Positions 2,017-62,922 of a stretch of 64,000 bases of DNA are shown piece by piece. Made by a program: the position numbers and the translations under genes. Below the pieces are notes generated by a model. It was not told the origin of the DNA. It searched no databases and saw only the letters and a list, made by a program, of their open reading frames with translations. Source of the stretch: a virus; the IMG/VR virus record IMGVR_UViG_3300029258_004337, positions 1 through 64,000 of that record; one strand, 5' to 3'. Numbering within the stretch: position 1 is the first letter of the stretch; every line of letters starts with the position of its first letter.

Positions 2017-2075
2017 GGAACCTCCTTGGGTCTCAAGCTCTTGTGCGCCGCTCGTCTCGCGGATTTCATCCTCCC

Positions 2076-3520: not shown

Positions 3521-3644
3521 GGCCGCGGTCAATGGAGAACCTCGGAGGGCAGAGAGACCAACCTCCTGCCGCTCGGTGGGGGACGCCGAGGGGCCCTCTC
3601 CACCAAGCCCTTATGCGACGCCGCAGGGCACGGTTTCACGGCGT
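3521..3644. other. Intergenic region with no gene
   Basis: I see no convincing coding sequence between the hairpin and the promoter-like element. It contains CTTATGCGACG at 3610-3620, an 11-mer that recurs at 41299-41309 in the gap where the leftward replication genes and rightward head genes diverge. Confidence 0.4.
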
Positions 3645-30097: not shown

Positions 30098-32092
30098 TCA
30101 CTTGGCATCCGACCATCGGGTCACGATGGACGGCTCCGCGATGAGAGGCACGCGGAGGGGGTTCTTGAACGGGTGCTCCATGTGGTGCTGGATGATCTCG
30201 ACGGCCTCGTCGGCCGTACGCCGCGGACACCGCCAGATGAGCTCGTCGTGCACCTGCAGCACCATCTCGGCCTTGAGGTCGACCCGGAGGTACGAGTCGA
30301 ACTCGCAGTACAGCATCGCGCGCTTCACGATGTCGTGGGCACTGCCCTGGATGCGCGCGTTGATGGCCTGGCGCAGAGCGCGACGGACCTCGCTCATGCG
30401 GTGGGACTTGGCCTTGGACAGACGACGGAAGCGGCCACGGTAGGTCTGCACGCGCCCTCTGCGACGCGCCGTCTTCTTCGTGGTCTCCATGTAGCCACGG
30501 ACGCCGGGGAAGGTGTCCAGGTACATCTCGATCATCGACAGGGCCTCTTCCTTGGAGACCGGACGTCCGAGGGCTTCGGTGAGCTGAACGGCCAGGCCGT
30601 GCTCGGTGATGCCGTAGACGATGCCGAAGCCGATGGCCTTGGCTGCTGTCCGCATGCCCATGGCCCAGACCTCGCGCTCGAGGAGACGCGCCTCTCCCGG
30701 GTAGTCGTTCTCGTGGACGCCGCTGTCTCGGAGCTCGGCCTGCAGCTTCTCCTTGGCCTTGCCCTCCTTCACGTGGGCCACGAACTCGTCGTAGTCCATC
30801 TCGTTCATGTTGGCGGCCGTGTACGAGTGCATGTCGAGGCCGTCGATGATGCCCTTGATCATCGTCTCGTCGCCGCTGATGTCGGCCAACACCCGCATCT
30901 CCAGCTGGGCGTAGTCGGCGACGATGAGCACGTACTCCTCGCCCATGTCGGTCGGTGCGACGAGGAGTCCTCGGATGCCGTACTTGTCGTTGTCCTTCCG
31001 CGGGATGTTCTGCAGGTTCGGCTCGGCGCTGGACAGTCGTCCGGTCACCTTGATGGGGCTGAACTTGGTGTGGATGCGTCCCGTGTTCTTGGAGATGTGC
31101 TTCGGTAGGCCCTTGACGTAGCCCTCGAGCTTCGCGAGCTCGGACCACTCCACGAGGTCCTGGCAGACCTCGACGCCCATGCCGGCGTACATCTCCATCG
31201 TCTTCGCGTCGGTGGACCCTCCGTTGCCGGACTTGGTCTTGCGCTTCACGGGCAGCCCGAGGCCGCGCGGCGGGTCTGCGTACAGGAGCTCCTGCTTCTG
31301 CGGCGTGCTGTTCGGGTTGAAGGGCCGTCCCAGCTTCGAGTTGATGCGAGCAGCGACCACGGCCATGTCGGCCTCGACCCTCTTGCGCATCGCGGCGAAG
31401 AGGCCTGCGTCGGTGTCCAGGCCGCGGCGCTCCATCTTGTACAGCGTCTGCAGCTGCGGCTCCTCCTCGTACCAGTACTGGTACATGAGGGTCTCGTCGG
31501 GCTTGTCGTGCCACTTCACGAGGTCGGAGAGCTTGTCCAACAGCAGGAGGCAGCACTCGCGGTGCAGCCAGGCATCGAGCGCGGCGTAGTCGACGAAGAG
31601 CTCGTACTTGGGGTGTCCTGGCGTAGCGACGTCCACCATGTTGTCCCGGCCGAACAGGTGCTTGAAGCTGTGGGTCGGGATGCCGAGGTAGTCGTCGCTG
31701 CACTCCTTGAGGCCGTGCCGGTTCTCGCGGAGGTCCTCATCGAACAACCAGTCGAGGACATTGCCGTCCGCCCACCGCCCCCCGACATGGATGCCCATGT
31801 TGGCGAAGCGGTGGACGTCGAACTTGGCGTTGAAGATGGCCCACGTGATGTCCTCGCGCTCCAGCAGGGGCTGGAAGCGGCGGATGAGAGGCCGCGGCAC
31901 GTAGTACCGGGCCTCCGCATCCGGGCAGAGGCTCATGCAGATGATCTGGTCGTCGGTCTTGAGGTGCCCCTTGCCGAGGGTCTCGGTATCCAGGCCGACC
32001 ATCTGGTCGTAGTACCAGCACCGCTCGAACACCTCGTCCAGGTTGTGCTCGCCCACTTCGATCACGGGCGGCACGTCTTCGATGAACCTCAT
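30098..32092 (-). CDS. polA: Family A DNA polymerase with 3'-5' exonuclease
   Basis: This is a 664-residue protein; AGGAGG precedes the ATG by 6 nt. The exonuclease domain starts with G-L-D-T-E-T (D35, E37), followed by N-A-K-F-D-V-H and a Y-A-A-L-D-A motif near 169-174. The polymerase domain has T-G-R-L-S-S-A-E-P-N-L-Q-N-I-P at 350-364, motif A D393-Y-A-Q-L-E-M-R, motif B R481...K485...F489...Y493-G and motif C Q-V-H-D-E at 613-617. There is no 5'-3' exonuclease domain, so it is the Klenow-like form typical of phage replicases. Phe at motif B predicts discrimination against dideoxynucleotides. It is the likely replicative polymerase of the phage. Confidence 0.95.
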   Translation of the reverse strand: MRFIEDVPPVIEVGEHNLDEVFERCWYYDQMVGLDTETLGKGHLKTDDQIICMSLCPDAEARYYVPRPLIRRFQPLLEREDITWAIFNAKFDVHRFANMGIHVGGRWADGNVLDWLFDEDLRENRHGLKECSDDYLGIPTHSFKHLFGRDNMVDVATPGHPKYELFVDYAALDAWLHRECCLLLLDKLSDLVKWHDKPDETLMYQYWYEEEPQLQTLYKMERRGLDTDAGLFAAMRKRVEADMAVVAARINSKLGRPFNPNSTPQKQELLYADPPRGLGLPVKRKTKSGNGGSTDAKTMEMYAGMGVEVCQDLVEWSELAKLEGYVKGLPKHISKNTGRIHTKFSPIKVTGRLSSAEPNLQNIPRKDNDKYGIRGLLVAPTDMGEEYVLIVADYAQLEMRVLADISGDETMIKGIIDGLDMHSYTAANMNEMDYDEFVAHVKEGKAKEKLQAELRDSGVHENDYPGEARLLEREVWAMGMRTAAKAIGFGIVYGITEHGLAVQLTEALGRPVSKEEALSMIEMYLDTFPGVRGYMETTKKTARRRGRVQTYRGRFRRLSKAKSHRMSEVRRALRQAINARIQGSAHDIVKRAMLYCEFDSYLRVDLKAEMVLQVHDELIWRCPRRTADEAVEIIQHHMEHPFKNPLRVPLIAEPSIVTRWSDAK

Positions 32093-39094: not shown

Positions 39095-40480
39095 TCATGC
39101 GTCGATGATGCGGAAGGGGATGTTCCAGCTGGTGAAGGAAGCCTGCATCCGGGCAGCCCAGCGGCGGCAGCGCTTGATCTTGTCGTCGAAGATGATGATG
39201 ACCACCGGGTCGGGCTTCCCTTCCACGGCGCGCTGGATGCGGCCCATGATCTGCTGCAGGGCGTTGCGGTTCTTCATGGCCACCGAGATGACCACGACGG
39301 AGAGCATCGGCTTGTCGAGACCCTCGATGCCGAGCTCCTCGATGGCGAGCAGGAGCTTGCAGTTGTCGACGAGCTCGGGCCGGTCCTTCTGCTTCACGCC
39401 GGCGTGGATGACCGAGACGTTGTCTCCCTTCCACTTGTGCGACAGATCTGTCAGGTGGTCACGGCTCGGGGTGAGGACCATGACCTCGTGGTCGTCGCTG
39501 AGCGCGAGGTTCACGTACTTCTCGATGACGCGATCTCGGGCCGGGTCGCGGAGAAGTGCCGTGTGGAACTTCCCGATGTTGAACTCGCCGCGCTTGTCCT
39601 TGGAGGCGTCCTCCTGATCGCCCGTGAGCTCCTGCCCCGTACGGACGAAGAACACGCCAGGCGTCAGGTCCTGCTCGAGGTCCCGGTAGAGCTGGGGGCC
39701 GATGTGGGCCGAGTAGAGGCCCTCCAGACCATCGGTGCGGTCGGGAGTCGCGGTCAGGCCCCACCGCACGCCGTGGCACAGGTCCGCCGCGAGGTTGAAC
39801 TTCTCGGCCGCCATGTGGTGGACCTCGTCGTAGACCACGGTCCCGAAGTGCCACCGCAGCTCTTCGGGCAAGCGCCCGGCCTCGATGGCCTGCCACAGCG
39901 TCTGGATGGACGCGATGCAGAACGGCTTCCCCTCCCAGTCCAGGGTGCCGTCGCCGATCATCCCGATGTGCTCCTCATCGATGTTCGTGTGCTCGAGGAG
40001 CCGCTCCTTCCACTGCCCCAGCAGGGAGCCGTTGTGGGCCACGAACATCGCCGCGTACCCCACGCTGAGGGCCGCGTGGATGCCGATGACGGTCTTGCCT
40101 CCGCCGCACTTCAGGACTCCGACGCCGTCGCCGCCCTCGACGAGGGCCTTCCACATGGCGACCTGGTTGGTCTTCCCCTCCCCGAACTCGAGGCCTCGCC
40201 GCAGCTCGTGAGTGGGCTTCACCCACCCGGGGATGCGGAAGAACTCGGGCGGGTCGTCGAAGACGATCTCGCAGCCGAGCTCGTCCAGGTCCTCGACCGG
40301 GATGTAGTGCCGCGGCACCACCAGGTGATGCTGCGTCTCGGTGAACGCCTCGAACAGCGAGGAGCTCTTCTTCGTCTGGAACGAGAGGGAGCCCTTCACG
40401 GCCTCCTCTCCCACGTGGCTCTTGGGGAGCCAGAGGCTCGCCCCGCGGTAGGCCACGCCCGCCTTCTTGCTTCGGTTCAT
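39095..40480 (-). CDS. SF2 DEAD/DEAH-type helicase (UvsW-like)
   Basis: This is a 461-residue protein. Conserved SF2 motifs occur in order: motif I K124-C-G-G-G-K-T130, motif II D218-E-V-H221, motif III T-A-T-P at 243-246, and the late Q-I-M-G-R-I-Q-R motif VI near residue 415. The N-terminal 90 residues are a separate domain, as in T4 UvsW and phage recombination helicases. Such helicases move branches and resolve D-loops and R-loops. It follows a small regulator gene (4-nt overlap) and precedes the glycosylase gene. Confidence 0.85.
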   Translation of the reverse strand: MNRSKKAGVAYRGASLWLPKSHVGEEAVKGSLSFQTKKSSSLFEAFTETQHHLVVPRHYIPVEDLDELGCEIVFDDPPEFFRIPGWVKPTHELRRGLEFGEGKTNQVAMWKALVEGGDGVGVLKCGGGKTVIGIHAALSVGYAAMFVAHNGSLLGQWKERLLEHTNIDEEHIGMIGDGTLDWEGKPFCIASIQTLWQAIEAGRLPEELRWHFGTVVYDEVHHMAAEKFNLAADLCHGVRWGLTATPDRTDGLEGLYSAHIGPQLYRDLEQDLTPGVFFVRTGQELTGDQEDASKDKRGEFNIGKFHTALLRDPARDRVIEKYVNLALSDDHEVMVLTPSRDHLTDLSHKWKGDNVSVIHAGVKQKDRPELVDNCKLLLAIEELGIEGLDKPMLSVVVISVAMKNRNALQQIMGRIQRAVEGKPDPVVIIIFDDKIKRCRRWAARMQASFTSWNIPFRIIDA

Positions 40481-41255: not shown

Positions 41256-41338
41256 GCACACCTCCTGGCAAGCGCGGAAATGCCTGCCTACGTGTTACTT
41301 ATGCGACGATTGTGCCCACCTCCTTCGTCGGAGCTCCG
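41256..41338. promoter_or_regulatory. Divergent control region
   Basis: This 83-bp gap separates the leftward replication genes from the rightward head genes and should hold at least one promoter for each. It contains CTTATGCGACG (41299-41309, also at 3610-3620) and ATTGTGC (41309-41315). On the - strand it reads GCACAAT followed by GTCGCATAAG. GCACAAT also occurs on the - strand at 63364-63370, upstream of the gene at 62992. No standard -35/-10 pair is evident on either strand. Confidence 0.4.
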
Positions 41339-42424: not shown

Positions 42425-43089
42425 CGGCATCCGCGCCACTTCTGCGCGCGCCGGGGCCGTTCGATGACGAGGCAGGCACCCACCTCCTCGTTCTTCATCG
42501 CCTGCTCCTGGCGCACCTGGGACCGTCCTACAGGGACCTCGACTCTGCGGCTCTGCGGGAGGAGATCACCGAGCGCTTCGGAGGCCTCGGCGACGTCGCG
42601 TGGAACCGCGTGCAGGCAGGGCGCCTCCTGGCCACCAACGACATGGCGTGGGAGGAGTGGGGCGTGTTCGAGAAGGTGGTCTCTGCCGTCGCCGGCGAGA
42701 TGCCAGACTTCGCCTACATGCAGCCGCCCGAGGCCGAGGACGTGGCCCGGACGCTCCTGACCATGGCCGAACTCGCCCAGCCCGACTTCCACTACGACGT
42801 GGTGGCCTACATCGGCGCGGCCTGCCTGCACGACGGTCTGTGGTACCTCGAGGCCCCACTGGACATCTCGCGGCCGGTCATCACCGAGTACGTGGAGGAC
42901 AAGAAGCTGGACCTCCCCTTCGACCAGGTGCGTCACCTCCTGGCTTCGCGGAGCCGGCCCTTCGCCAACCCGGACAGTCCCGCCGAGGTACAGTTGAACG
43001 AGGTGTTGGCCGTGCGGGAGGACCTCGCCGAGTTCCGCCAGGAGCTCATGGACCAGGCGGTGCACCTGCGGAGACCACGAAATGGGTAG
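42421..43089 (+). CDS. Head-region protein upstream of portal
   Basis: This is a 222-residue protein; the ATG at 42421 overlaps the upstream stop (ATGA), which I prefer to a start 15 nt earlier. It is mainly helical, with segments L-L-V-L-H-R-L-L-L-A-H-L and Y-D-V-V-A-Y-I-G-A-A-C-L. It has no Cys pairs or nucleotide-binding motif. The 3' end overlaps the portal gene by 8 nt. An adaptor, scaffold or packaging accessory role is possible, but no direct evidence was found. Confidence 0.55.
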   Translation: MTASAPLLRAPGPFDDEAGTHLLVLHRLLLAHLGPSYRDLDSAALREEITERFGGLGDVAWNRVQAGRLLATNDMAWEEWGVFEKVVSAVAGEMPDFAYMQPPEAEDVARTLLTMAELAQPDFHYDVVAYIGAACLHDGLWYLEAPLDISRPVITEYVEDKKLDLPFDQVRHLLASRSRPFANPDSPAEVQLNEVLAVREDLAEFRQELMDQAVHLRRPRNG

Positions 43090-44989
43090 CTTCTCGTCCA
43101 GCGCAGGGACCTCCGGTGCCCCTCTCACAGGCTCGTTCAAGCACGGCTCGCTGGACCACCGCAACCAGTCCAGCCGGTACCCGAGCCCGTGGTGGGACAT
43201 CGCTTCGATGGACCTGCCGAAGAACATCAAGCAGCTGTTCAAGCGCCTGGCCTACCACGCCACGACGAACCCGCTCATCTCATCCGGCGTCCGGAAGATG
43301 GCGGCCTACCCCGTCACCAAGGTCCAGGTCGACGCCAACGAAGAGGAGGGCTTCGACCGCCACGTCCAGCGGTGGGAAGACCTCCTCCACCGGGTGCTGA
43401 ACATCCAGAAGGTCCAGGTCGAGCTGGCCATCGACTACTACACCTACGGCAACGCCTTCGCCTCGATCTACCTGCCCTTCCTCAAGATGCTGCAGTGTTC
43501 GCACTGCAAGGAGAGTCACCGGGTCAAGCGGCTGAAGTTCAAGAAGGACTGGGACTTCAAGGGCTTCCGCTTCCACCTGACTTGTCCCTCCTGTGGGCAC
43601 ACGGGCCGCGCGCGCGCCTTCGACAAGCCCATTCGCTCCCACAAGGACATCCGCATCGTCCGGTGGGAGCCCGAGCAGGTCGACATCGACTTCAACCCCG
43701 TGACGACCAACAAGCGGTACACCTACAAGGTCCCCGCCGACGTCGCGGCCAAGATCCGTCAGAAGGACCCCTGGTTCATCGCGGACATGCCGCAGGCCTT
43801 CCTCGAGGCGGTGAGGCTCAACAGGTCCGTCCGCCTGGTGGACGCCAACCTGTTCCACTTCGCGGCGCCGTCGCCGTCCACGAAGTCGGCCCGGGGCTGG
43901 GGCCTGCCTCCCATCCTGGCTGCGATGAAGGACAGCTACCACCTGCAGATCATGAAGAAGGCGAACGAGGCCGTGCTGCTCGAGCACATGCTGCCCCTCG
44001 ACGTGTTCTTCCCGGCCTCCTCCAGCCCCAACGCGGACCCCTACGTCCACACCAACCTGGGGCAGTGGCAGAAGGACACCGAGCAGCAGCTCGCCTTCTG
44101 GCGCAAGGACCCGAACCACAAGCCCGTCATGAGCCTCCCTCTCGGTCACCAGCGCATCGGAGGCACGGGCAAGTCCCTCATGCTGACGCAAGAGATCCGG
44201 GCGATGTCGGAGCACGTCCTGGTCGGGATGAACGTGCCCCAGGAGTTCGTCTTCGGAGGGCTCACCTGGTCGGGGTCGAGCGTGTCGATCCGCATGCTGG
44301 AGAACATGTTCCTGGCCGACCGGGACATGCAGCACCGCTTCCTGCAGCACTTCGTCATCCCCGTCATCTCGATGTTCATGAAGTGGAGCCCCGTCAAGGT
44401 CCACATGAAGCAGTTCCGGATGGCGGACGACGTGCAGGCCAAGCAGCTGCTGATGCAGCTCAAGACGATGGGCGACCTGAGCGCGAAGTCGCTGCTCACC
44501 GAGTTCGACAAGGACTACGACGACGAGCAGCGGATGATCCGCCACGAGCTCCGCCAGAAGCTGGCCATGCAGAAGATGCAGGTCGAGGCCCAGGCCGACG
44601 TCCAGGCCGAGGTCCAGATGCGGCAGCAGGCGCGAGCGCAGGCCGCCGCAGAGCCTCCCGTGCAGGATGACGTGTCGAACCGGCAGGTCAACGTGCTGGA
44701 CCTCGCCGAAGGCTGGGCCTACCGCCTGGCCCAGCTCGATCCGGCGAAGCGAGAGCAGGTGCTCGCCAGCATGAACGAGAAGATGCCCGAGATGGCTCGC
44801 CGCGTGCGCCACGTCTTGGCGTCGTACCCCACGCCAGAGGCGCCCCACCAAGGCACGACCGACGAGGATCTCCCGGGAGTGGGCGACGGCATGATCTCTT
44901 CAGGGCAAGAGGGGTCCGGCGGCGGGGCTGTCGTCGACATGCGGCCGATGCCTTCCCAGAGGCCCCCACGTCGCGCTGGGGCGGTCTGA
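43082..44989 (+). CDS. Portal protein with inserted zinc finger
   Basis: This is a 635-residue protein. The portal signature Y-G-N-A-F lies at 122-126 after a helix with A-I-D-Y-Y-T. A zinc finger is inserted at 139-171: C139-S-H-C142 and C168-P-S-C171, separated by a Lys/Arg-rich loop. The stretch after it (L-V-D-A-N-L-F-H-F, then P-P-I-L-A-A-M-K) and the C-terminal Q/A-rich coiled coil are usual for large-phage portals. The portal is the dodecameric DNA gate of the capsid. The C-terminal 60 residues are Gly/Pro-rich and likely disordered. It directly precedes the RNA polymerase gene. Confidence 0.8.
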   Translation: MGSFSSSAGTSGAPLTGSFKHGSLDHRNQSSRYPSPWWDIASMDLPKNIKQLFKRLAYHATTNPLISSGVRKMAAYPVTKVQVDANEEEGFDRHVQRWEDLLHRVLNIQKVQVELAIDYYTYGNAFASIYLPFLKMLQCSHCKESHRVKRLKFKKDWDFKGFRFHLTCPSCGHTGRARAFDKPIRSHKDIRIVRWEPEQVDIDFNPVTTNKRYTYKVPADVAAKIRQKDPWFIADMPQAFLEAVRLNRSVRLVDANLFHFAAPSPSTKSARGWGLPPILAAMKDSYHLQIMKKANEAVLLEHMLPLDVFFPASSSPNADPYVHTNLGQWQKDTEQQLAFWRKDPNHKPVMSLPLGHQRIGGTGKSLMLTQEIRAMSEHVLVGMNVPQEFVFGGLTWSGSSVSIRMLENMFLADRDMQHRFLQHFVIPVISMFMKWSPVKVHMKQFRMADDVQAKQLLMQLKTMGDLSAKSLLTEFDKDYDDEQRMIRHELRQKLAMQKMQVEAQADVQAEVQMRQQARAQAAAEPPVQDDVSNRQVNVLDLAEGWAYRLAQLDPAKREQVLASMNEKMPEMARRVRHVLASYPTPEAPHQGTTDEDLPGVGDGMISSGQEGSGGGAVVDMRPMPSQRPPRRAGAV

Positions 44990-45013: not shown

Positions 45014-45030
45014 AGCCCAGGAGGGGATGA

Positions 45031-48000
45031 GTGTCCAACCCAGTCGACAGCTTCGAGAGCGTGAAGCGTGAGGTCGCCGAGGCGCTGACCGAGGTGTTCC
45101 CCGTCGAGAACGGCCGGGACAGCATCCGCCTCGAGAACGTCGCGGTCCGCGACACCAAGAACCCCGACGACGTGACGGCCCAGTCGGACGCCATCGACAA
45201 CGGGAAGACGTGGGCAGTGCCTGTCGAGGCCGACGTGGTCCTGTCGCGCAATGGCAAGGACGTGTCGCGCCGCCGGCTCAAGGTGATGGACCTCCCTCGG
45301 ATGACCGAGAGGGGCTCGTACATCTACAACGGCAACGAGTACCACATCTCCAACCTGTTCACGCGAAAGTCCGGTGTCTACCACCGCATGCGCGAGAGCG
45401 GCGATGCGGTAGCCGACTTCAACCTCGCGAACCGCAGCCAGTTCGCGGGCCGGCGGATGAAGGTCCAGTACGACCCCGCGACGTCGGAAGTGGCGGTCAT
45501 GCGGGGGACGTCGAAGATCCCGCTCGTGGACTTCCTCCGCATGGCAGGAACCGACGACTCGAAGATCAAGGCCGTGCTGCCCGAGAGCGTGTGGTCCTCG
45601 AGCCTCAAGGCGTCCCAGCCCAAGAAGTCCCGTGCTCGACTGGCGCGGTGGCTCGGGGTGAAGGTCGACGAGACGGAGTCCGTGCTCAAGGAGAAGCTGG
45701 CCGAGACGGAGCTCTACCCCGAGACGACGCGCCGGACGTTGGGCATGGACGCCAAGGAGGTCACGCCCGACGTCCTGCTGCAGAGTGCCAAGAAGCTGGT
45801 CGGCATCGTGAAGGGAGACCCGGAGGACAACCAGGAGGCGATGGAGTTCCAGCGCATCGCGGGAGCCCCGGAGCTGTTCGGTGACCAGCTCCGGAAGAGC
45901 AAGAAGGCCATCCAGCGCCGGGTGAAGTCGGCGATGGCCCGGAAGGAGAAGGGCGGCGTGCGGGCCATGATGCCCAGCGAGGCGCTGCAGCGTCCCTTCA
46001 ACAGCTTCTTCTCGACCTCCCTGGCGAACCAGACCGAGCTCATCAACCCGCTGCAGGCGCTGTCGGCCTCGCGCCGCACGACGCTCATGGGCCCTCACGG
46101 AGGCATCCGGTCGGAGCACGTCGTCTCCGACGAGGCGAAGATGATCGACCCGAGCCAGCTCGGGTTCCTCGACCCCGTGCACACGCCGGAGGGCCCCCGC
46201 TTGGGCATCACGCTCTCCATCCCCCTGGGCACGCGCAAGAAGGGGCGGAAGCTCGAGTCCCGGTTCATCGACGCGAAGACCGGCAAGACGGTCTGGCTCG
46301 ACCCGACCCAGCTCCAAGGCAAGTCCGTGGCCTTCCCGGACGAGTACCGGGAGTCGGGCCGGAAGCGGGTGGCGCGCAAGAAGCGCGTCCTGGTCCAGAA
46401 GGACGGCGAGATCACCGACGTCGCTCCTCGCAGCGTCGACTACATCATGCCCTCTCCCCGGGAGATGTTCGGCATCACGTCGAACCTCATCCCCTTCCTG
46501 TCCTCGGACCAGGGCAACCGCACCATGACGGCCTCCCGCCAGGCCGAGCAGGCGGTGCCGCTCAAGCACAGGGAAGCCCCTCTGGTCCAGGTACTGTCGG
46601 ACTCGGGCAAGACCTTCGAGGAGGAGCTCGGCAAGCGAGTGGCTCGAACCAGCCCGGTCGCCGGCACCGTGACCCAGGTCCAGAAGGACGCCGTGGTCAT
46701 CAAGGACGCGGGAGGCAAGAGCCACAAGGTCGCCCTATTCCGCAACTTCGGGTCGAAGGCGAATTCGCTCTACGACTCGGAGGTCAAGGTCAAGGCAGGA
46801 GACGCCGTGAAGGCCGGGGACGTGGTAGCCGACACCACCTTCACCCGCGATGGCGTCCTGGCCCTCGGCACCAACCTCCGCACCGGGTACCTGCCTCTCA
46901 AGGGCTACAACTTCGAGGACGGCATCGTCATCTCGGAGACGGCGGCGGGCAAGCTCACCTCCGAGCACGTCCACAAGCCCGAGACGACCCTTGGCAAGAG
47001 CTCCCAGGTCGACCGGCGCAAGTTCGTCAACTCCTACCCAGCCCTGTTCAACAAGGGGCAGCTGGAGAACGTGCAGGACGACGGCGTGGTCAAGGTCGGG
47101 GCACGTGTGTCGAAGGGGGACCCTCTCCTGCTGGCGCTTCACGACCCCACGGACGCGCGCCCGGGTCGTCCGAAGCGAGGCCGGAGGAACTCCCGTCGCT
47201 TCGTCTCCGGTGCCATCACCTGGGATAAGGACGTCGAAGGCGAGGTCGTCCGCATTCAGCGGCTCAAGGAGCGAGGAGTCGAGCGCGTCGTCGTGCACGT
47301 CCGCACGGCCGAGCCCGCCAAGGTCGGCGACAAGCTCGTGGGGCGTCACGGCAACAAGGGCGTCATCACCCGCATCATGACCGACTCTCAGATGCCCTAC
47401 GTCGAAGAGGACGGGGAGAAGAAGGTCCTCGACATCGCCTTGAACCCGATGGGGATCCCAGGCCGCATCAACCTCGGTCAGGTCCAGGAGACGGCGGCGG
47501 GCAAGGTCGCGGCCAGGAAGGGTCAGGTCTACAAGGTCAAGAACTTCGATCCCGAGATCTCGGACTACACGGCGCAGGTGGCCAAGGACCTTGGCGCCGC
47601 TGGGTTCTCCGAGGACGGCAAGGAGGTCCTGTTCGACCCTGAGACGGAGAAGCCGTTCCGCCAGCGCGCCGCCGTCGGCCAGCAGTACTTCTACAAGCTG
47701 CGCCACCAGGTCGACAAGAAGGTGAGCGCGCGCTCTGGCTCTGGGTCGGGCCGCACGGCATCGGGCGGCAGCACCTCCCCCTACGACATCAACCACGCCC
47801 CCAGCTCCGGAGCTCCCCACGGCGGGCAGTCCCTGGGCGAGCTGGGCACCTACGCCCTCCTGGCGCACGGCGCGCGGGAGAACCTGCACGAGATGCAGGC
47901 GTACAAGGGCGAGCGGAACACGGCTCTGTGGGACGCCCTTCGGGAAGGAACGCCCCTGCCTCCCCCGAAGGCGCCCTTCGTGTACGAGAAGTTCCTCAGC

Positions 48001-51000
48001 ATGCTCAACGGCGTGCGAGTCAACGTGCGGCGCAACGGCAACAGCCTCCAGCTCATGCCCTTCACCGAGGACCAGGTGAAGGCCCTGGCTCCCAAGGCGC
48101 TTCCACAGCCAGGCCTCGTGCTCCACTCCACCACGGCGGAGCCGATCCGGGGCGGCCTGTTCGACCCCGAGATCACCGGCGGCGTCGACGGCGACCGCTG
48201 GTCGCGGTTCGAGCTTCCCGAGGCCATCCCGAACCCGGTCTTCGAGGACGCCATCAAGAAGCTCCTGGGCATCAACCAGGCCAAGTTCAACAAGTTGGTG
48301 AGCGGCGAGACGCAGGTCAACGGCAAGCGCGGCGGTGAAGCCATCGAGGAGATGCTCTCCGGCATCGACGTGAAGGCCGAGGAGAAGCGCCTCAAGGAGC
48401 GGCTGTCGTCCCTCAAGCCCGGTGCGACTCGGGACAAGGCGTACAAGCGCTACCGGATCGTGCGCGCGCTCAACGAGGGAGGCCTCGACCCGTCGGTCTA
48501 CATGATGCGGTCGGTGCCGGTCCTCCCGCCACGCTTCCGCCCGGTCACGCCCCAGGCCGACGGCCGGCTCATGACCAACGACCTCAACTTCCTGTACAAG
48601 GACGTCGCGTTCACGGCCGAGGGCCTCCAGAAGCTCAAGGACGTGCACATGGACTACGTGTCCATGGCTCCCATCCGCAAGGGCGTCTACGACGGGGTGA
48701 AGGCCTTGTCTGGCGTCGGCGGCAACATCAGTCGGCGCGCGCGGTCGAGCCAGGACGACAGCTACAAGGGCATCATCGACCTCATCACCGGCAAGGTGCG
48801 GCGCAGCGACGGCAGCGACGGGGGCCGCTCGAAGGAGGGGTTCTTCCGCAAGAACATGCTGCGCAAGCGGCAGGACTTCAGTGCTCGGTCGACCATCACG
48901 GTGGAGCCCGGCCAGGACCTCGACGAGCTGGGAATCCCCGAGAAGATCGCGTGGACGCTCTACCAGCCCTTCGCCGAGCGCGAGCTCGTCCGGGAGGGCA
49001 TGGGCTACCTCGACGCCGAGGAGGAGTACGCCAAGAAGTCGGACAGGTCGCGCCACGCCCTCGAGCGAGCGATGAGCCAGCGCCCGGTCCTGTTCAAGCG
49101 CGACCCCGCCCTCCACAAGTTCAACGTCCAGGCGTTCCGGCCCAGGCTCGTGAAGGGCTCGGCGCTGGAGATGCACCCCCTGGCCGTGGGAGGCTTCAAC
49201 GCCGACTTCGACGGCGATGCCATGTCGGTCTACGTCCCCATCTCGGACCAGGCGGCTCGCGAAGCCACCAAGATGTTCCCCTCGAAGAACCTCTTCAGCC
49301 CGACGACCGGCGCGATCATGCACACCCCGGGGCACGAGGCGCTGCTCGGCCTGTACCTGATGACGAAGCCGGGGAAGAAGACCTCGAAGACCTTCAAGAC
49401 GCAGGCCGAGGCCGAGAAGGCGTTCCGGACGGGCAACCTGAACCTCGACGACATCGTGCGCGTCGGTGGCGCGGAGACGACGCTGGGCCGCCTTCGCGTC
49501 GAGTCCGTCCTCCCCGCGCAGTACCGCGAGACGGGGAAGCGGAAGGTCAAGGACATGACGGTGCTCGACGCCAAGAGGATGAAGGGACTCCTGTCCCGCC
49601 TCGGACGGGAGCACGAGCAGGACTACGGCAAGGTCACCAACGCCCTGACGATGCTCGGGAACGAGCACTCGTACAAGGAGGCCTTCTCCATCGGCCTGGA
49701 CGACTTCCGGGTCGTGAACAAGGCCAAGCGGGACCGGATCATCGGGGAGTCGAACCGGGAAGTCGACGCACTCTTGCGGCAGGGCAGGAAGCGCAAGTCC
49801 GCTGAGGTCCTGTCGATCTTGGACAAGGCGACCGACCGCATCGACGCCTTGACGACCCAGAAGCTGAAGGCGGACCCGACCAACATCTACCAGATGGTGA
49901 CGTCGGGCTCGCGAGGCAAGCCGGAGCAGCTCAAGCAGATCATCTCGACGCCTGGGCTCGTGAAGAACGCCAAGGACGAGGTCGTGCCCTTCCTGGTGCC
50001 GAGCTCGTACTCGGAGGGCCTGGACACTAGTGCGTACTGGGTCACGCTCGCCGGCGCGCGCAAGGGCACCCTACAGAAGACGCAGGGCGTGGCCATGCCA
50101 GGCTACATGACCCGCCTCATGATCAACAGCACCGTGGACCAGCTCGTCACGGAGGACGACTGCGGCACGGGCGACGGGACGAAGCTCTCGGTCGACGACC
50201 ACGACGCCCTGGACCGCTACCTGGCCAAGCCCCTCCGCGTCGGAGGCAAGACCTACCGCCGCGGCTCCGTCGTGACGCCGCACCTCCTGGCCGCCGCGAA
50301 GAAGGGCCGGAAGGGCGCGATCGAGGTCCGCTCCCCGACGAGGTGCCAGTCCGAGGACGGGATCTGCAAGAAGTGCATGGGCCTGTCCGAGAACGGGCGT
50401 CCCTACGACATCGGAGACAACCTCGGCGTCGTCGCCTCTCAGGCTGTCGGAGAGCCCAGCACCCAGCTGTCCCTCAACGTCTTCCACCAGGGCGGGCTGG
50501 CCAAGGGCCGCGGCTCCGACTCGATGGGCACCTTCAAGCGCCTCGAGGAGCTGCTCACCCTCAACACGAACCTGCCGTTCACGGCGCCGCTCGCCCCACA
50601 GTCGGGGACGGTGAAGGACGTGAAGAAGGCCGACCGAGGCGGGCACAACGTCTACATGGGCGACGCCACGCTGTGGGTGCCTCCTGGGCAGGACCTGAAG
50701 GTGAAGAAGGGCCAGCGTGTGGCCCGCGGCACCGCGCTCTCCACGGGGCCCCAGAACCCGCGAGACGTGCTGAACCTACGGGGCCTGCACCAGATGCAGG
50801 ACTACGTGACCGACCAGATCCAGGGCGTGCTCAAGAAGGCAGCCCCGGTGAAGCGGCGCAACATCGAGGTCGTGGTCAAGGCCATGACCGACATCACCCG
50901 CGTCGAGGACCCTGGAGACCACCCGGACTGGGTGCCCGGCGACATCCGCCCCGTGACCAAGGTCAACGCGTGGAACCGCAAGGCCGCCCGGGCAGGGAAG

Positions 51001-51234
51001 AAGTCGGTGGCTCACGAGCCCCAGGTGAAGGGTGTCAAGCTGCTGCCGAAGGAGCTCAAGGAGGATTGGCTGGCCCGCCTCAACTTCGAGGACCTGGGGT
51101 CTTCGCTGACCCAGGCGTTCCGCGAGGGCTGGCGGTCCAACATCCACGGCTTCCATCCCCTCCCAGGGCTGGCGGTGGGCTCCGAATTCGGCAAGACCAA
51201 GGGCAAGGTCAAGGACTGGCGCGGCCAGTACTGA
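45031..51234 (+). CDS. Single-chain RNA polymerase: fused beta and beta-prime cores
   Basis: This is a 2067-residue protein; the GTG start follows AGGAGGGG. The beta part (about 1-1010) has a fork-loop/rifampicin region I-N-P-L-Q-A-L then R-R-T-T-L-M-G-P, H384-T-P-E-G-P, G625-Y-N-F-E-D and G766-D-K-L-V-G-R-H-G-N-K-G, then G-G-Q-S-L-G-E-L and the C-terminal clamp strands. The beta-prime part (about 1015-2067) has G-G-L-F-D, V-L-P-P-R-F-R-P, F-S-A-R-S-T-I-T-V and the catalytic N1390-A-D-F-D-G-D1396. The bridge-helix region is G-A-R-K-G; the second zinc site is C1711, C1772, C1779, C1782; H-Q-G-G follows. The first beta-prime zinc finger is absent, and the large lineage insertions of E. coli beta and beta-prime are missing. 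It transcribes DNA; being in the head cluster it may be packaged. Confidence 0.93.
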   Translation: MSNPVDSFESVKREVAEALTEVFPVENGRDSIRLENVAVRDTKNPDDVTAQSDAIDNGKTWAVPVEADVVLSRNGKDVSRRRLKVMDLPRMTERGSYIYNGNEYHISNLFTRKSGVYHRMRESGDAVADFNLANRSQFAGRRMKVQYDPATSEVAVMRGTSKIPLVDFLRMAGTDDSKIKAVLPESVWSSSLKASQPKKSRARLARWLGVKVDETESVLKEKLAETELYPETTRRTLGMDAKEVTPDVLLQSAKKLVGIVKGDPEDNQEAMEFQRIAGAPELFGDQLRKSKKAIQRRVKSAMARKEKGGVRAMMPSEALQRPFNSFFSTSLANQTELINPLQALSASRRTTLMGPHGGIRSEHVVSDEAKMIDPSQLGFLDPVHTPEGPRLGITLSIPLGTRKKGRKLESRFIDAKTGKTVWLDPTQLQGKSVAFPDEYRESGRKRVARKKRVLVQKDGEITDVAPRSVDYIMPSPREMFGITSNLIPFLSSDQGNRTMTASRQAEQAVPLKHREAPLVQVLSDSGKTFEEELGKRVARTSPVAGTVTQVQKDAVVIKDAGGKSHKVALFRNFGSKANSLYDSEVKVKAGDAVKAGDVVADTTFTRDGVLALGTNLRTGYLPLKGYNFEDGIVISETAAGKLTSEHVHKPETTLGKSSQVDRRKFVNSYPALFNKGQLENVQDDGVVKVGARVSKGDPLLLALHDPTDARPGRPKRGRRNSRRFVSGAITWDKDVEGEVVRIQRLKERGVERVVVHVRTAEPAKVGDKLVGRHGNKGVITRIMTDSQMPYVEEDGEKKVLDIALNPMGIPGRINLGQVQETAAGKVAARKGQVYKVKNFDPEISDYTAQVAKDLGAAGFSEDGKEVLFDPETEKPFRQRAAVGQQYFYKLRHQVDKKVSARSGSGSGRTASGGSTSPYDINHAPSSGAPHGGQSLGELGTYALLAHGARENLHEMQAYKGERNTALWDALREGTPLPPPKAPFVYEKFLSMLNGVRVNVRRNGNSLQLMPFTEDQVKALAPKALPQPGLVLHSTTAEPIRGGLFDPEITGGVDGDRWSRFELPEAIPNPVFEDAIKKLLGINQAKFNKLVSGETQVNGKRGGEAIEEMLSGIDVKAEEKRLKERLSSLKPGATRDKAYKRYRIVRALNEGGLDPSVYMMRSVPVLPPRFRPVTPQADGRLMTNDLNFLYKDVAFTAEGLQKLKDVHMDYVSMAPIRKGVYDGVKALSGVGGNISRRARSSQDDSYKGIIDLITGKVRRSDGSDGGRSKEGFFRKNMLRKRQDFSARSTITVEPGQDLDELGIPEKIAWTLYQPFAERELVREGMGYLDAEEEYAKKSDRSRHALERAMSQRPVLFKRDPALHKFNVQAFRPRLVKGSALEMHPLAVGGFNADFDGDAMSVYVPISDQAAREATKMFPSKNLFSPTTGAIMHTPGHEALLGLYLMTKPGKKTSKTFKTQAEAEKAFRTGNLNLDDIVRVGGAETTLGRLRVESVLPAQYRETGKRKVKDMTVLDAKRMKGLLSRLGREHEQDYGKVTNALTMLGNEHSYKEAFSIGLDDFRVVNKAKRDRIIGESNREVDALLRQGRKRKSAEVLSILDKATDRIDALTTQKLKADPTNIYQMVTSGSRGKPEQLKQIISTPGLVKNAKDEVVPFLVPSSYSEGLDTSAYWVTLAGARKGTLQKTQGVAMPGYMTRLMINSTVDQLVTEDDCGTGDGTKLSVDDHDALDRYLAKPLRVGGKTYRRGSVVTPHLLAAAKKGRKGAIEVRSPTRCQSEDGICKKCMGLSENGRPYDIGDNLGVVASQAVGEPSTQLSLNVFHQGGLAKGRGSDSMGTFKRLEELLTLNTNLPFTAPLAPQSGTVKDVKKADRGGHNVYMGDATLWVPPGQDLKVKKGQRVARGTALSTGPQNPRDVLNLRGLHQMQDYVTDQIQGVLKKAAPVKRRNIEVVVKAMTDITRVEDPGDHPDWVPGDIRPVTKVNAWNRKAARAGKKSVAHEPQVKGVKLLPKELKEDWLARLNFEDLGSSLTQAFREGWRSNIHGFHPLPGLAVGSEFGKTKGKVKDWRGQY

Positions 51235-61248: not shown

Positions 61249-62922
61249 ATGGGTGCTTCTGCTCTAGCCGTTGATGGTGCGTACGACGAGCCCATCGACT
61301 TCACTCCCTACGAGTTCACCCAGATGGCGGTGAACCACAAGGGCGAGTCCATCGAGCTGGGGAACCGCCCTTGGCTGTACCACATCTACAACCTCCCGTT
61401 CTCGCCTCTCCCGAACACCGACTCGGACATCGAGCGCGAGATCTGGCGGCGACGCATCCTCCTGGTCTTCGGGCGTCAGTCCGAGAAGAGCACGACGCTG
61501 GGCAACCTCCTGCTCTCGACGTCGAACCTCATCCCCTACCTGCGCAGCCTGTACGTCACGGCCTCGAACACGCAGATGCTCGAGTTCAGCGACGAGCGAC
61601 TGCGGGCGGTCATCGAGGACAGCCCGATCCTCAAGGACCTGTCGAGCAGCCAGGTCCAGAACGTCCTGACGAAGCGGTGGCTGGGGCAGGCCAAGATCAA
61701 CCTGCGCTCCGTCTACAAGGGCCCGGACCGAGCGCGCGGCGTCATGTGCGACCACCTGTACATCGACGAGCTGCAGGATGTGTACCTCGACGGCCTGCCC
61801 GTCATCGAGGAGACCACGCGCGCCTGCTCCTTCGAGGAGGGCGACCTCAAGGTCTACGCCGGCACGCCGAAGACCTACGACAACAGCATCGAGCACTACT
61901 GGGCGCGGCGCAGCACCCAGAACGAGTGGATGGTCCGATGCACCAGGTGCCGGACGTGGAACGTCATCGAGATCGAGAACGTGCGCCCCGAGGGCCTGTG
62001 CTGCAAGAAGTGCGACCGCGAGCTCGACCCGATGACGCAGGGGACGTGGGTACGGCACGGGGCCAGCAGCGCGGAGTGGGAGGGCTTCCGGGTTCCTCAG
62101 CCCATCGTCGAGTACGTGTACAGAGACCAGCCCAAGATCTTCTGGCGGAAGTGGGAGACCCTGCTCCACAAGGTCCAGAACTACCCTCGCGGCAAGCTAC
62201 AGAACGAGGTCTTCGCCCGCAGCCACGACAGCGGCACGAAGCCCGTCACCTTCCAGCAGGTCCGGCGCTGCGCCCTCCCCGACCTGGAGTTCGTGGACAA
62301 GCCCACCTCCATGTTCCGGCAGAGCGCGAAGTGGGCGGGCATCGACTGGGGCACCGGCGACGCCTCCTTCTCGGTCCTGTCCATCTGGGGCTACGACAGC
62401 TACGGCCGCTTCCGGTGCATCTTCGCGAAGAAGTACGTCGGGCACGAGGCGGACCCCGACTACTCCTGGCGCGACATGGAGAAGATCTGCAAGCGGTACG
62501 GCGTCAACCGCATCGGGGCAGACTGGGGCTTCGGCTTCGAGACGAACCGCCACCTCCTCAAGGCCTTCGGCGCGGAGCGCTTCCACCAGTTCCAGCACTC
62601 CGACGGGCAGGCCAAGCTGGTGAAGTACGACGGCGACCGCAACGTCTACACCACCCACCGGTCGCGCGTCCTGGCCCTGGCCTTCGAGCTCATCAAGAGG
62701 GGGCCGGTGAGCCAGGGGACGTGCTTCCCGAACTGGGAGGACTTCGAGCCGTACGCCAACGACATCCTCGCCGTCTACAGCGAGTACAGCCGGCTGCGCC
62801 GCCAGATCGTGTACGACCACCCCCGGACCCAGCCCGACGACTTCCTGCACACGATGGTCTACGCCCTGCTCGTCTCGATGAACGACGTCCGCCGGAAGGA
62901 CCTGATCAACGCTGTGTCGTAG
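61249..62922 (+). CDS. terL: Large terminase subunit (TerL)
   Basis: This is a 557-residue protein. The ATPase domain has Walker A G75-R-Q-S-E-K-S-T82 (Glu replacing the second Gly, as in several TerL proteins), followed by Walker B L-Y-I-D-E at 171-175. A zinc finger lies at C232-T-R-C235 and C252/C253-K-K-C256. The nuclease domain has G-I-D367-W-G, G-A-D426-W-G and P-D531-D532-F. It packages DNA through the portal. Ribosome-site spacing is long (AGGAGGG 17 nt upstream), so initiation may also use a weaker site. The stop codon begins the third TAGCGAAGAAG element. Confidence 0.85.
   Translation: MGASALAVDGAYDEPIDFTPYEFTQMAVNHKGESIELGNRPWLYHIYNLPFSPLPNTDSDIEREIWRRRILLVFGRQSEKSTTLGNLLLSTSNLIPYLRSLYVTASNTQMLEFSDERLRAVIEDSPILKDLSSSQVQNVLTKRWLGQAKINLRSVYKGPDRARGVMCDHLYIDELQDVYLDGLPVIEETTRACSFEEGDLKVYAGTPKTYDNSIEHYWARRSTQNEWMVRCTRCRTWNVIEIENVRPEGLCCKKCDRELDPMTQGTWVRHGASSAEWEGFRVPQPIVEYVYRDQPKIFWRKWETLLHKVQNYPRGKLQNEVFARSHDSGTKPVTFQQVRRCALPDLEFVDKPTSMFRQSAKWAGIDWGTGDASFSVLSIWGYDSYGRFRCIFAKKYVGHEADPDYSWRDMEKICKRYGVNRIGADWGFGFETNRHLLKAFGAERFHQFQHSDGQAKLVKYDGDRNVYTTHRSRVLALAFELIKRGPVSQGTCFPNWEDFEPYANDILAVYSEYSRLRRQIVYDHPRTQPDDFLHTMVYALLVSMNDVRRKDLINAVS

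Follow-up and report, generated by a model that had tools for sequence, protein, structure and literature searches.

A single-chain bacterial-type RNA polymerase and a sigma70-family factor in a tailed phage, perhaps carried in the virus particle

Whether a bacterial-type RNA polymerase (RNAP) core can serve a phage as one polypeptide, and at which stage of infection it would be used, is the question raised by a gene of the virus record IMGVR_UViG_3300029258_004337 from the IMG/VR database. The stretch analysed, referred to below as the window, comprises bases 1-64000 of this record, which has 174,678 bases, 67.8% guanine-plus-cytosine (GC) content, 237 called genes and no end repeats that could be found. 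The gene joins beta and beta' in a single chain, and the favoured reading, considered probable, is that of an alpha-free, virion-carried RNAP that transcribes the early genes with a phage sigma factor.

The gene and its reading frame

The gene is a single frame of 2,067 codons without interruption; it starts with GTG, 41 nucleotides (nt) past the end of the portal gene. The following features define it (coordinates are those of the window).

45019-45024, plus strand: ribosome-binding site AGGAGG, 6 nt before the GTG start of the RNAP gene (sequence)
45031-51234, plus strand: single-chain RNAP of 2,067 residues, with beta at about residues 1-1000 and beta' at about residues 1001-2067 (motifs, Pfam, alignment and fold models)

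A preliminary description of this DNA had reported the same uninterrupted frame with beta before beta', and this is borne out by the open reading frame and by the Pfam matches, in which Rpb2 domains 3, 6 and 7 precede Rpb1 domains 1-5, as is native for them (best match 1e-57). All motifs quoted there are found in the frame, with NADFDGD corresponding to N1390-D1396, and the comparison of the chain with RpoB and RpoC proposed there returns the bacterial Rpb2 and Rpb1 domains and, with phmmer, bacterial beta' chains at an E-value of about 1e-108. The third-position GC content is 0.90-0.96 in all 600-base segments and even throughout, so that no join of two genes is visible in the frame.

Active site, missing parts and predicted fold

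The anatomy of the chain was derived from an alignment with RpoB and RpoC of Salmonella, eight other bacteria and 15 phage relatives, and the catalytic elements are located as follows.

47326-47361, plus strand: beta catalytic barrel motif GDKLVGRHGNKG, with K768 and K776 (alignment)
49198-49218, plus strand: beta' catalytic motif NADFDGD, with D1392, D1394 and D1396 (sequence and alignment)
50161-50376, plus strand: beta' zinc site 2, with C1711, C1772, C1779 and C1782 (alignment)
50485-50487, plus strand: trigger-loop histidine H1819 (alignment)

The DxDxD metal-binding motif of the beta' barrel is present (D1392/D1394/D1396), both conserved lysines of the beta barrel are kept (K768 and K776), and the equivalent of beta' R425 is retained as R1357. 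The catalytic aspartates, the beta lysines, R1357, H1819 and the four zinc-2 cysteines are conserved in the 15 phage relatives too, R1286 is kept and differs in one relative, and the active-site residues of the family are invariant despite about 30-40% identity, which argues strongly for a catalytically competent fused chain. Compared with Salmonella, the chain is without beta 226-341, 939-1046 and 1128-1181 and beta' 943-1128, long stretches that we take to be mostly lineage-specific insertions. The zinc-1 ribbon (Salmonella beta' 66-97) is missing in 16 of the 16 aligned phage chains, and beta' 150-180 of Salmonella is also missing from the window RNAP. Since the catalytic centre is kept and the losses are limited to zinc 1, beta' 150-180 and the long Salmonella stretches, the chain is, as judged from the alignment, a near-minimal complete RNAP core. 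In the rifampicin pocket, D516, H526, S531 and I572 are replaced by E, A, T and T, respectively, changes which predict that the window RNAP is resistant to rifampicin.

The fold, a further check proposed in the preliminary description, was modelled with AlphaFold as two halves. The best PDB match of residues 990-2067 (pLDDT 87.8) is bacterial beta' (template modelling score, TM, 0.87), and that of residues 1-1010 (pLDDT 85.3) is bacterial beta (TM 0.76-0.78); in these models the fold of the chain is that of bacterial beta and beta'. Motifs, domains and fold together uphold the earlier proposal that the phage, a tailed one, encodes beta and beta' as a complete and compact enzyme in a single chain.

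Relatives and chain architectures

Alignment-based scans of IMG/VR yielded 282 relatives with a first query, of which 80 were retained, and 50 with a second query, while scans of viral contigs with a single protein or a hypersaline relative gave only one or two loci each. About 79 public viral loci, some of them near-duplicates, encode a single frame across essentially the whole query, and the nearest kin of the window RNAP are found at about 50% identity (L020, L038, L049, L068 and L085). At least 16 further loci carry the same protein re-split into separate chains, as beta-beta'N plus beta'C, in a few cases as beta plus beta'N plus beta'C, and in one or two with a cut inside beta. Among annotated phage records, at least 80% of the query is covered at four places only, namely in the three Vibrio phages D69, D148 and D181 and in an unannotated contig resembling host DNA. 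In Salmonella phage Arash, 72% of the query is matched in one piece, to which a second gene is added; gp206 (1,525 residues) represents beta plus beta'N and gp216 represents beta'C; the enzyme thus occurs as beta-beta'N plus beta'C in both isolated phages, Arash (Salmonella) and D69 (Vibrio).

Longer frames were also observed. RNAP frames of 2,500-3,006 residues occur in L071, L020, L082, L083, L088, L090 and L091, with big insertions right after NADFDGD (query residue 1396), at TPEGP (query residues 387-392) and near query residues 1800-1830. In the five cases examined they contain LAGLIDADG endonuclease domains, accompanied in one case by an intein-splicing match, and they are probably inteins that occupy three positions in the active site of the phage RNAP. 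Similarly, a contig binned as Candidatus Eisenbacteria (L151 9890-21145) has a 3,751-residue RNAP frame of the phage family, probably with several inteins. Separately, OR844998, AFYI01000006, CAKLQH020000005 and other records filed as phages contain apparent rpoBC operons of the ordinary bacterial type, in other words contaminating host DNA.

History of the fusion

A quick tree of 64 concatenated chains, including 14 bacteria on which it was rooted, recovers all phage chains as one clade outside the bacteria (SH-aLRT 100). The base of this clade is occupied by the fused L150 and by L119, which is cut only inside beta; the clade further contains one group of fused chains (99) and one of split chains (100). 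In a quick beta' tree calculated with a mixture model, the split group takes a nested position next to fused groups (87); in the beta'-only tree, Carin-5, RHph_TM30 and Va2 have long branches and are not placeable. Because rooting on bacteria puts fused chains at the base with the split group nested, the fusion is most simply read as ancestral to the phage clade and the splitting as secondary, which is a lead and not proof. A 2,596-residue fused beta-beta' frame was also observed in an Omnitrophota contig (L172 3215-11005), where it groups with bacteria in the tree and is apparently an independent cellular event.

Sigma factor, helicase and alpha subunit

Gene g236 (record positions 173624-174409) encodes a homologue of Arash gp10 (6e-14). 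By itself it gives only weak Pfam matches to sigma regions 3/4, and a sigma region 2 family search of the window phage's own genome did not recover it; a profile of 11 phage sigmas matched SigA over regions 2-4 (8e-41). By this profile comparison, g236 is a sigma70-family protein with regions 2, 3 and 4. A sigma homologue is present in each near-complete family genome examined, with examples in G001/G005, G008, G011, Arash (two), D69, L065, L066, L091 and L101. In addition, g231 (record positions 168676-170367) encodes an SNF2 helicase homologous to Arash gp217 (2e-38). No convincing alpha subunit gene was found in the window's record, which may be incomplete; one candidate, which scores 13 bits, is below threshold and lies antisense to a called gene, was judged to be due to chance.

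A promoter-like site

An unbiased k-mer count upstream of genes gives CGCATAAG as the top upstream word in the window's record, with 15 copies where about 1 is expected; 14 of the 15 are intergenic and 13 are positioned 25-57 nt before a start codon. Nearly all copies are on the minus strand, and none lies ahead of the capsid and tail blocks. Sites within the window are the following.

2040-2047, minus strand: variant octamer CGCACAAG, with an AA box upstream, 31 nt before gene g003
3610-3617, minus strand: promoter-like octamer CGCATAAG, intergenic, with no called gene close downstream
41298-41305, minus strand: promoter-like octamer CGCATAAG, 50 nt before the start of the minus-strand gene g035

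The same count in two distant members and Arash leads to GGTATAAG, and the consensus SGYATAAG is shared, reading CGCATAAG in the window phage and GGTATAAG in Arash and other phages; it is placed immediately ahead of early-type genes, in many cases with an AA box some 18 nt further upstream. In close relatives, CGCATAAG lies chiefly in intergenic DNA. With GenBank gene coordinates, Arash has 31 GGTATAAG sites, of which 25 are intergenic and 25 lie no more than 100 nt ahead of a start, compared with means of 0.7 intergenic and 0.6 before starts for 200 permuted octamers (maximum 6 and 4). Relative G008 has 33 such sites, and its 32 intergenic ones show AA at -18/-17 (31/32 and 30/32) and favour T-G at +13/+14; similarly, sites in the window's record favour AA at -19/-18 and TG at +12/+13. 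Over 40 records, SGYATAAG shows a strong one-strand excess in many members (34:2, 34:1, 33:3, 29:1 and, in Arash, 31:5), and the control phages Carin-5, RHph_TM30 and Va2 show no increase in core octamer counts. None of 12 relatives has the exact G000 motif CGCAYAAGNNNTTGGAG; what they share is the core octamer only. The placement and strand bias of the site suggest that SGYATAAG is used as a promoter; the Arash paper does not mention promoters (PMC10585845).

Two other repeated words were observed. A second recurrent upstream word, approximately GCGGTAGNCTG, precedes g009, g067, g130 and g175 of the window's record and resembles an actinobacterial-type minus-10 (TAGNNT), so that it may represent a host-read promoter class. 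In L003 (Vibrio phage D69), GCTGAAGTAGAA is repeated 13 times in a repeat array.

Gene order and virion evidence

The RNAP gene is placed in the late block, right behind the portal gene, and the portal-then-RNAP order is common to the window phage, Arash, D69 and many relatives. Arash homologues also exist for the terminase, the capsid protein and several other structural proteins of the window phage. The surrounding genes are as follows.

30098-32092, minus strand: family A DNA polymerase
39095-40480, minus strand: DNA helicase, part of the neighbouring minus-strand replication block
43082-44989, plus strand: portal protein directly upstream of the RNAP, homologue of Arash gp204 (2e-83)
61249-62922, plus strand: terminase large subunit (Pfam GpA_ATPase), homologue of Arash gp1

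Four tRNA genes (Pro, Met, Tyr and Phe) were also observed in the window's record, in its 100 kb region (L135 16715-17317).

Mass spectrometry of Arash particles from a sucrose gradient counted gp206 most (3,516 spectra), with 1,210 for gp216, 1,148 for gp217, 467 for the sigma gp10, 877 for the portal and 1,333 for the capsid protein (PMC10585845). As computed from these published counts, the Arash RNAP chains, sigma factor and SNF2 helicase have similar spectra per residue (2.0-2.4). Of these proteins, gp206/gp216, gp217 and gp10 are the homologues of the window RNAP, g231 and g236, respectively. The Arash authors suggested early transcription or carry-over (PMC10585845).

Proposed role and alternative explanations

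In the proposed mechanism, the beta C-terminus would lead straight into beta', and the two barrel domains would thereby be covalently tethered, which may replace alpha for assembly. The enzyme would be made late alongside the capsid genes, packaged in the virion, as the Arash data suggest, and then injected. Together with g236 it would recognise a promoter with a minus-10-like box, CGCATAAG or, in relatives, GGTATAAG, often with the AA box about 18 nt upstream, and the injected enzyme would start early-gene transcription from these SGYATAAG promoters. RapA acts with bacterial RNAP, and the SNF2 helicase g231 would probably cooperate with the phage RNAP in a RapA-like manner. For the window RNAP, we infer the pairing of the core with g236, the injection and the early transcription.

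Several observations weigh against this proposal. The beta' coiled-coil residues that bind sigma (R275, E295 and A302 in E. coli) are lost in the phage core, and because they are not conserved the canonical sigma contact is unsupported. Since the record is without end repeats, missing genes may lie outside it. D69 and several family records among the 40 counted have no SGYATAAG excess. The Arash virion data list 116 proteins, so that carry-over is possible, as its authors agree (PMC10585845), and packaging in the window phage is deduced from homology and gene position.

The main rival holds that host core with the phage sigma reads the early SGYATAAG sites, while the fused enzyme acts later, as a non-virion RNAP for middle or late genes, and its signal in Arash particles is carry-over. 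T4 gp55, a phage sigma that works on host core RNAP, provides a precedent, and the rival accommodates the resemblance of the Arash site to an extended minus-10 (TGnTATAAx), the SigA-like phage sigma, the many Arash particle proteins that look carried over and a phage core without canonical sigma-contact residues. It is nevertheless judged unlikely, as the RNAP is the most counted Arash particle protein with its gene in the capsid operon, the final base of the box is always G, at a position for which host sigma70 favours T, and the site is common to phages of widely differing GC content. A catalytically inert, decayed or structural relic of a host polymerase is very improbable, given that the active-site residues do not vary in a family with about 30-40% identity and that a sigma factor accompanies the RNAP, whereas nothing beyond the loss of the sigma-contact residues and zinc 1 was found in its favour. 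Least credible is that a host rpoB-rpoC fusion was captured recently or that the frame is an assembly artefact joining two host genes, the latter raised in the preliminary description itself: Helicobacter-type host fusions and the one fused Omnitrophota frame exist, but capture is already contradicted by the phage clade standing apart from the 14 bacteria (SH-aLRT 100), and an artefact by about 79 loci with the same architecture and the uniform codon bias.

The single-chain, virion-carried reading may extend further. The chances seem evenly balanced that a widespread group of tailed phages possesses a self-contained alpha-free single-chain RNAP with its own sigma70-family factor, an SNF2 helicase and conserved bipartite early promoters, delivered in the virion, and that the fusion is ancestral and was undone stepwise (to beta-beta'N and beta'C, then to beta, beta'N and beta'C). 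As scores of phages have the fused RNAP together with a sigma of their own and, in many, the shared promoter-like signal, the enzyme probably serves as a portable machine for transcription and may travel in the particle. If true, a bacterial-type core has been reduced to one polypeptide that still uses sigma, unlike the split phiKZ/AR9 and divergent crAss enzymes. Beta/beta' assembly without alpha, the direction of RNAP gene fusion versus splitting in evolution and the injection of a sigma-dependent transcription machine by phages all become testable, and the predicted promoters are open to immediate testing in the isolated phage Arash.

Comparison with known systems

The preliminary description had placed the enzyme outside the known groups and thought that it may be undescribed. 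The first part is supported, the sequence being far nearer to bacterial RNAP than to phiKZ, AR9, crAss or YonO enzymes. The second stands in part: the enzyme is not unique, with hundreds of relatives and a close variant in the isolated phages Arash and D69, and Arash as well as the multimeric-RNAP-encoding Caudovirales (mReC, 2020) had been published before, while no description of the fusion itself, or of the sigma pairing and promoter of the group, was found in a literature search that left subscription papers and preprints largely outside. New here are the sigma factor g236 and SNF2 helicase with particle-associated Arash homologues, the conserved promoter-like site and an RNAP for which no alpha was found.

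Arash gp206 plus gp216, and likewise Vibrio phages D69, D148 and D181, have full-length homology to the window RNAP at about 32% and 28% identity. The Arash/D69 type resembles the window phage in its portal-adjacent place and sigma homologues and, in Arash, the SNF2 homologue, and differs in that its chain is interrupted at the boundary of beta'N and beta'C, where other genes are inserted; Arash also has GGTATAAG where the window phage has CGCATAAG. The RNAP chains of Arash were detected in purified particles (PMC10585845). The mReC are phages with a deep-branching beta/beta' RNAP (Weinheimer and Aylward 2020; PMC7481178), and the window RNAP fits their description, with beta/beta' clearly similar to cellular ones, at least 800 residues and NADxDGD. 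They are likewise tailed phages whose near-cellular beta and beta' branch outside bacteria, and neither fusion nor sigma nor promoters are mentioned for them in that paper (PMC7481178). As compared by description, they differ in a PF07068 capsid and PF03237 terminase, whereas the window capsid has no Pfam match and the terminase is PF05876.

Single-chain two-barrel phage RNAPs are already known from crAss gp66, YonO and P23-45. The gp66 of crAss-like phi14:2 likewise has both barrels in one chain and is a virion RNAP; however, it is QDE-1-like, and its divergence is such that crAss enzymes escape the COG0085/COG0086 profiles (PMC7481178), whereas the cellular similarity of the window RNAP is readily detectable (bacterial beta', as given above). 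YonO and P23-45 have two barrels in a reduced and highly divergent form, and T7/N4 enzymes, also single-chain, have an unrelated fold. The bacterial core (RpoB and RpoC) shares domain order, active site, zinc 2, trigger loop and fold with the window RNAP, which differs in being fused, in having no zinc-1 ribbon and no alpha that was found, and in H526 to A and S531 to T. According to a 2026 review, jumbo-phage RNAPs are without homologues of bacterial alpha, sigma and omega, except for the structurally sigma-like phiKZ gp68 (PMC13282480). The virion and non-virion RNAPs of phiKZ/AR9 are also phage beta/beta' enzymes without alpha, with a virion form for early genes; they consist of four or five chains, have no sequence-detectable sigma70-family factor and are only weakly similar to the window RNAP, whereas the window phage encodes its enzyme in a single frame and has the sigma70-family factor g236.

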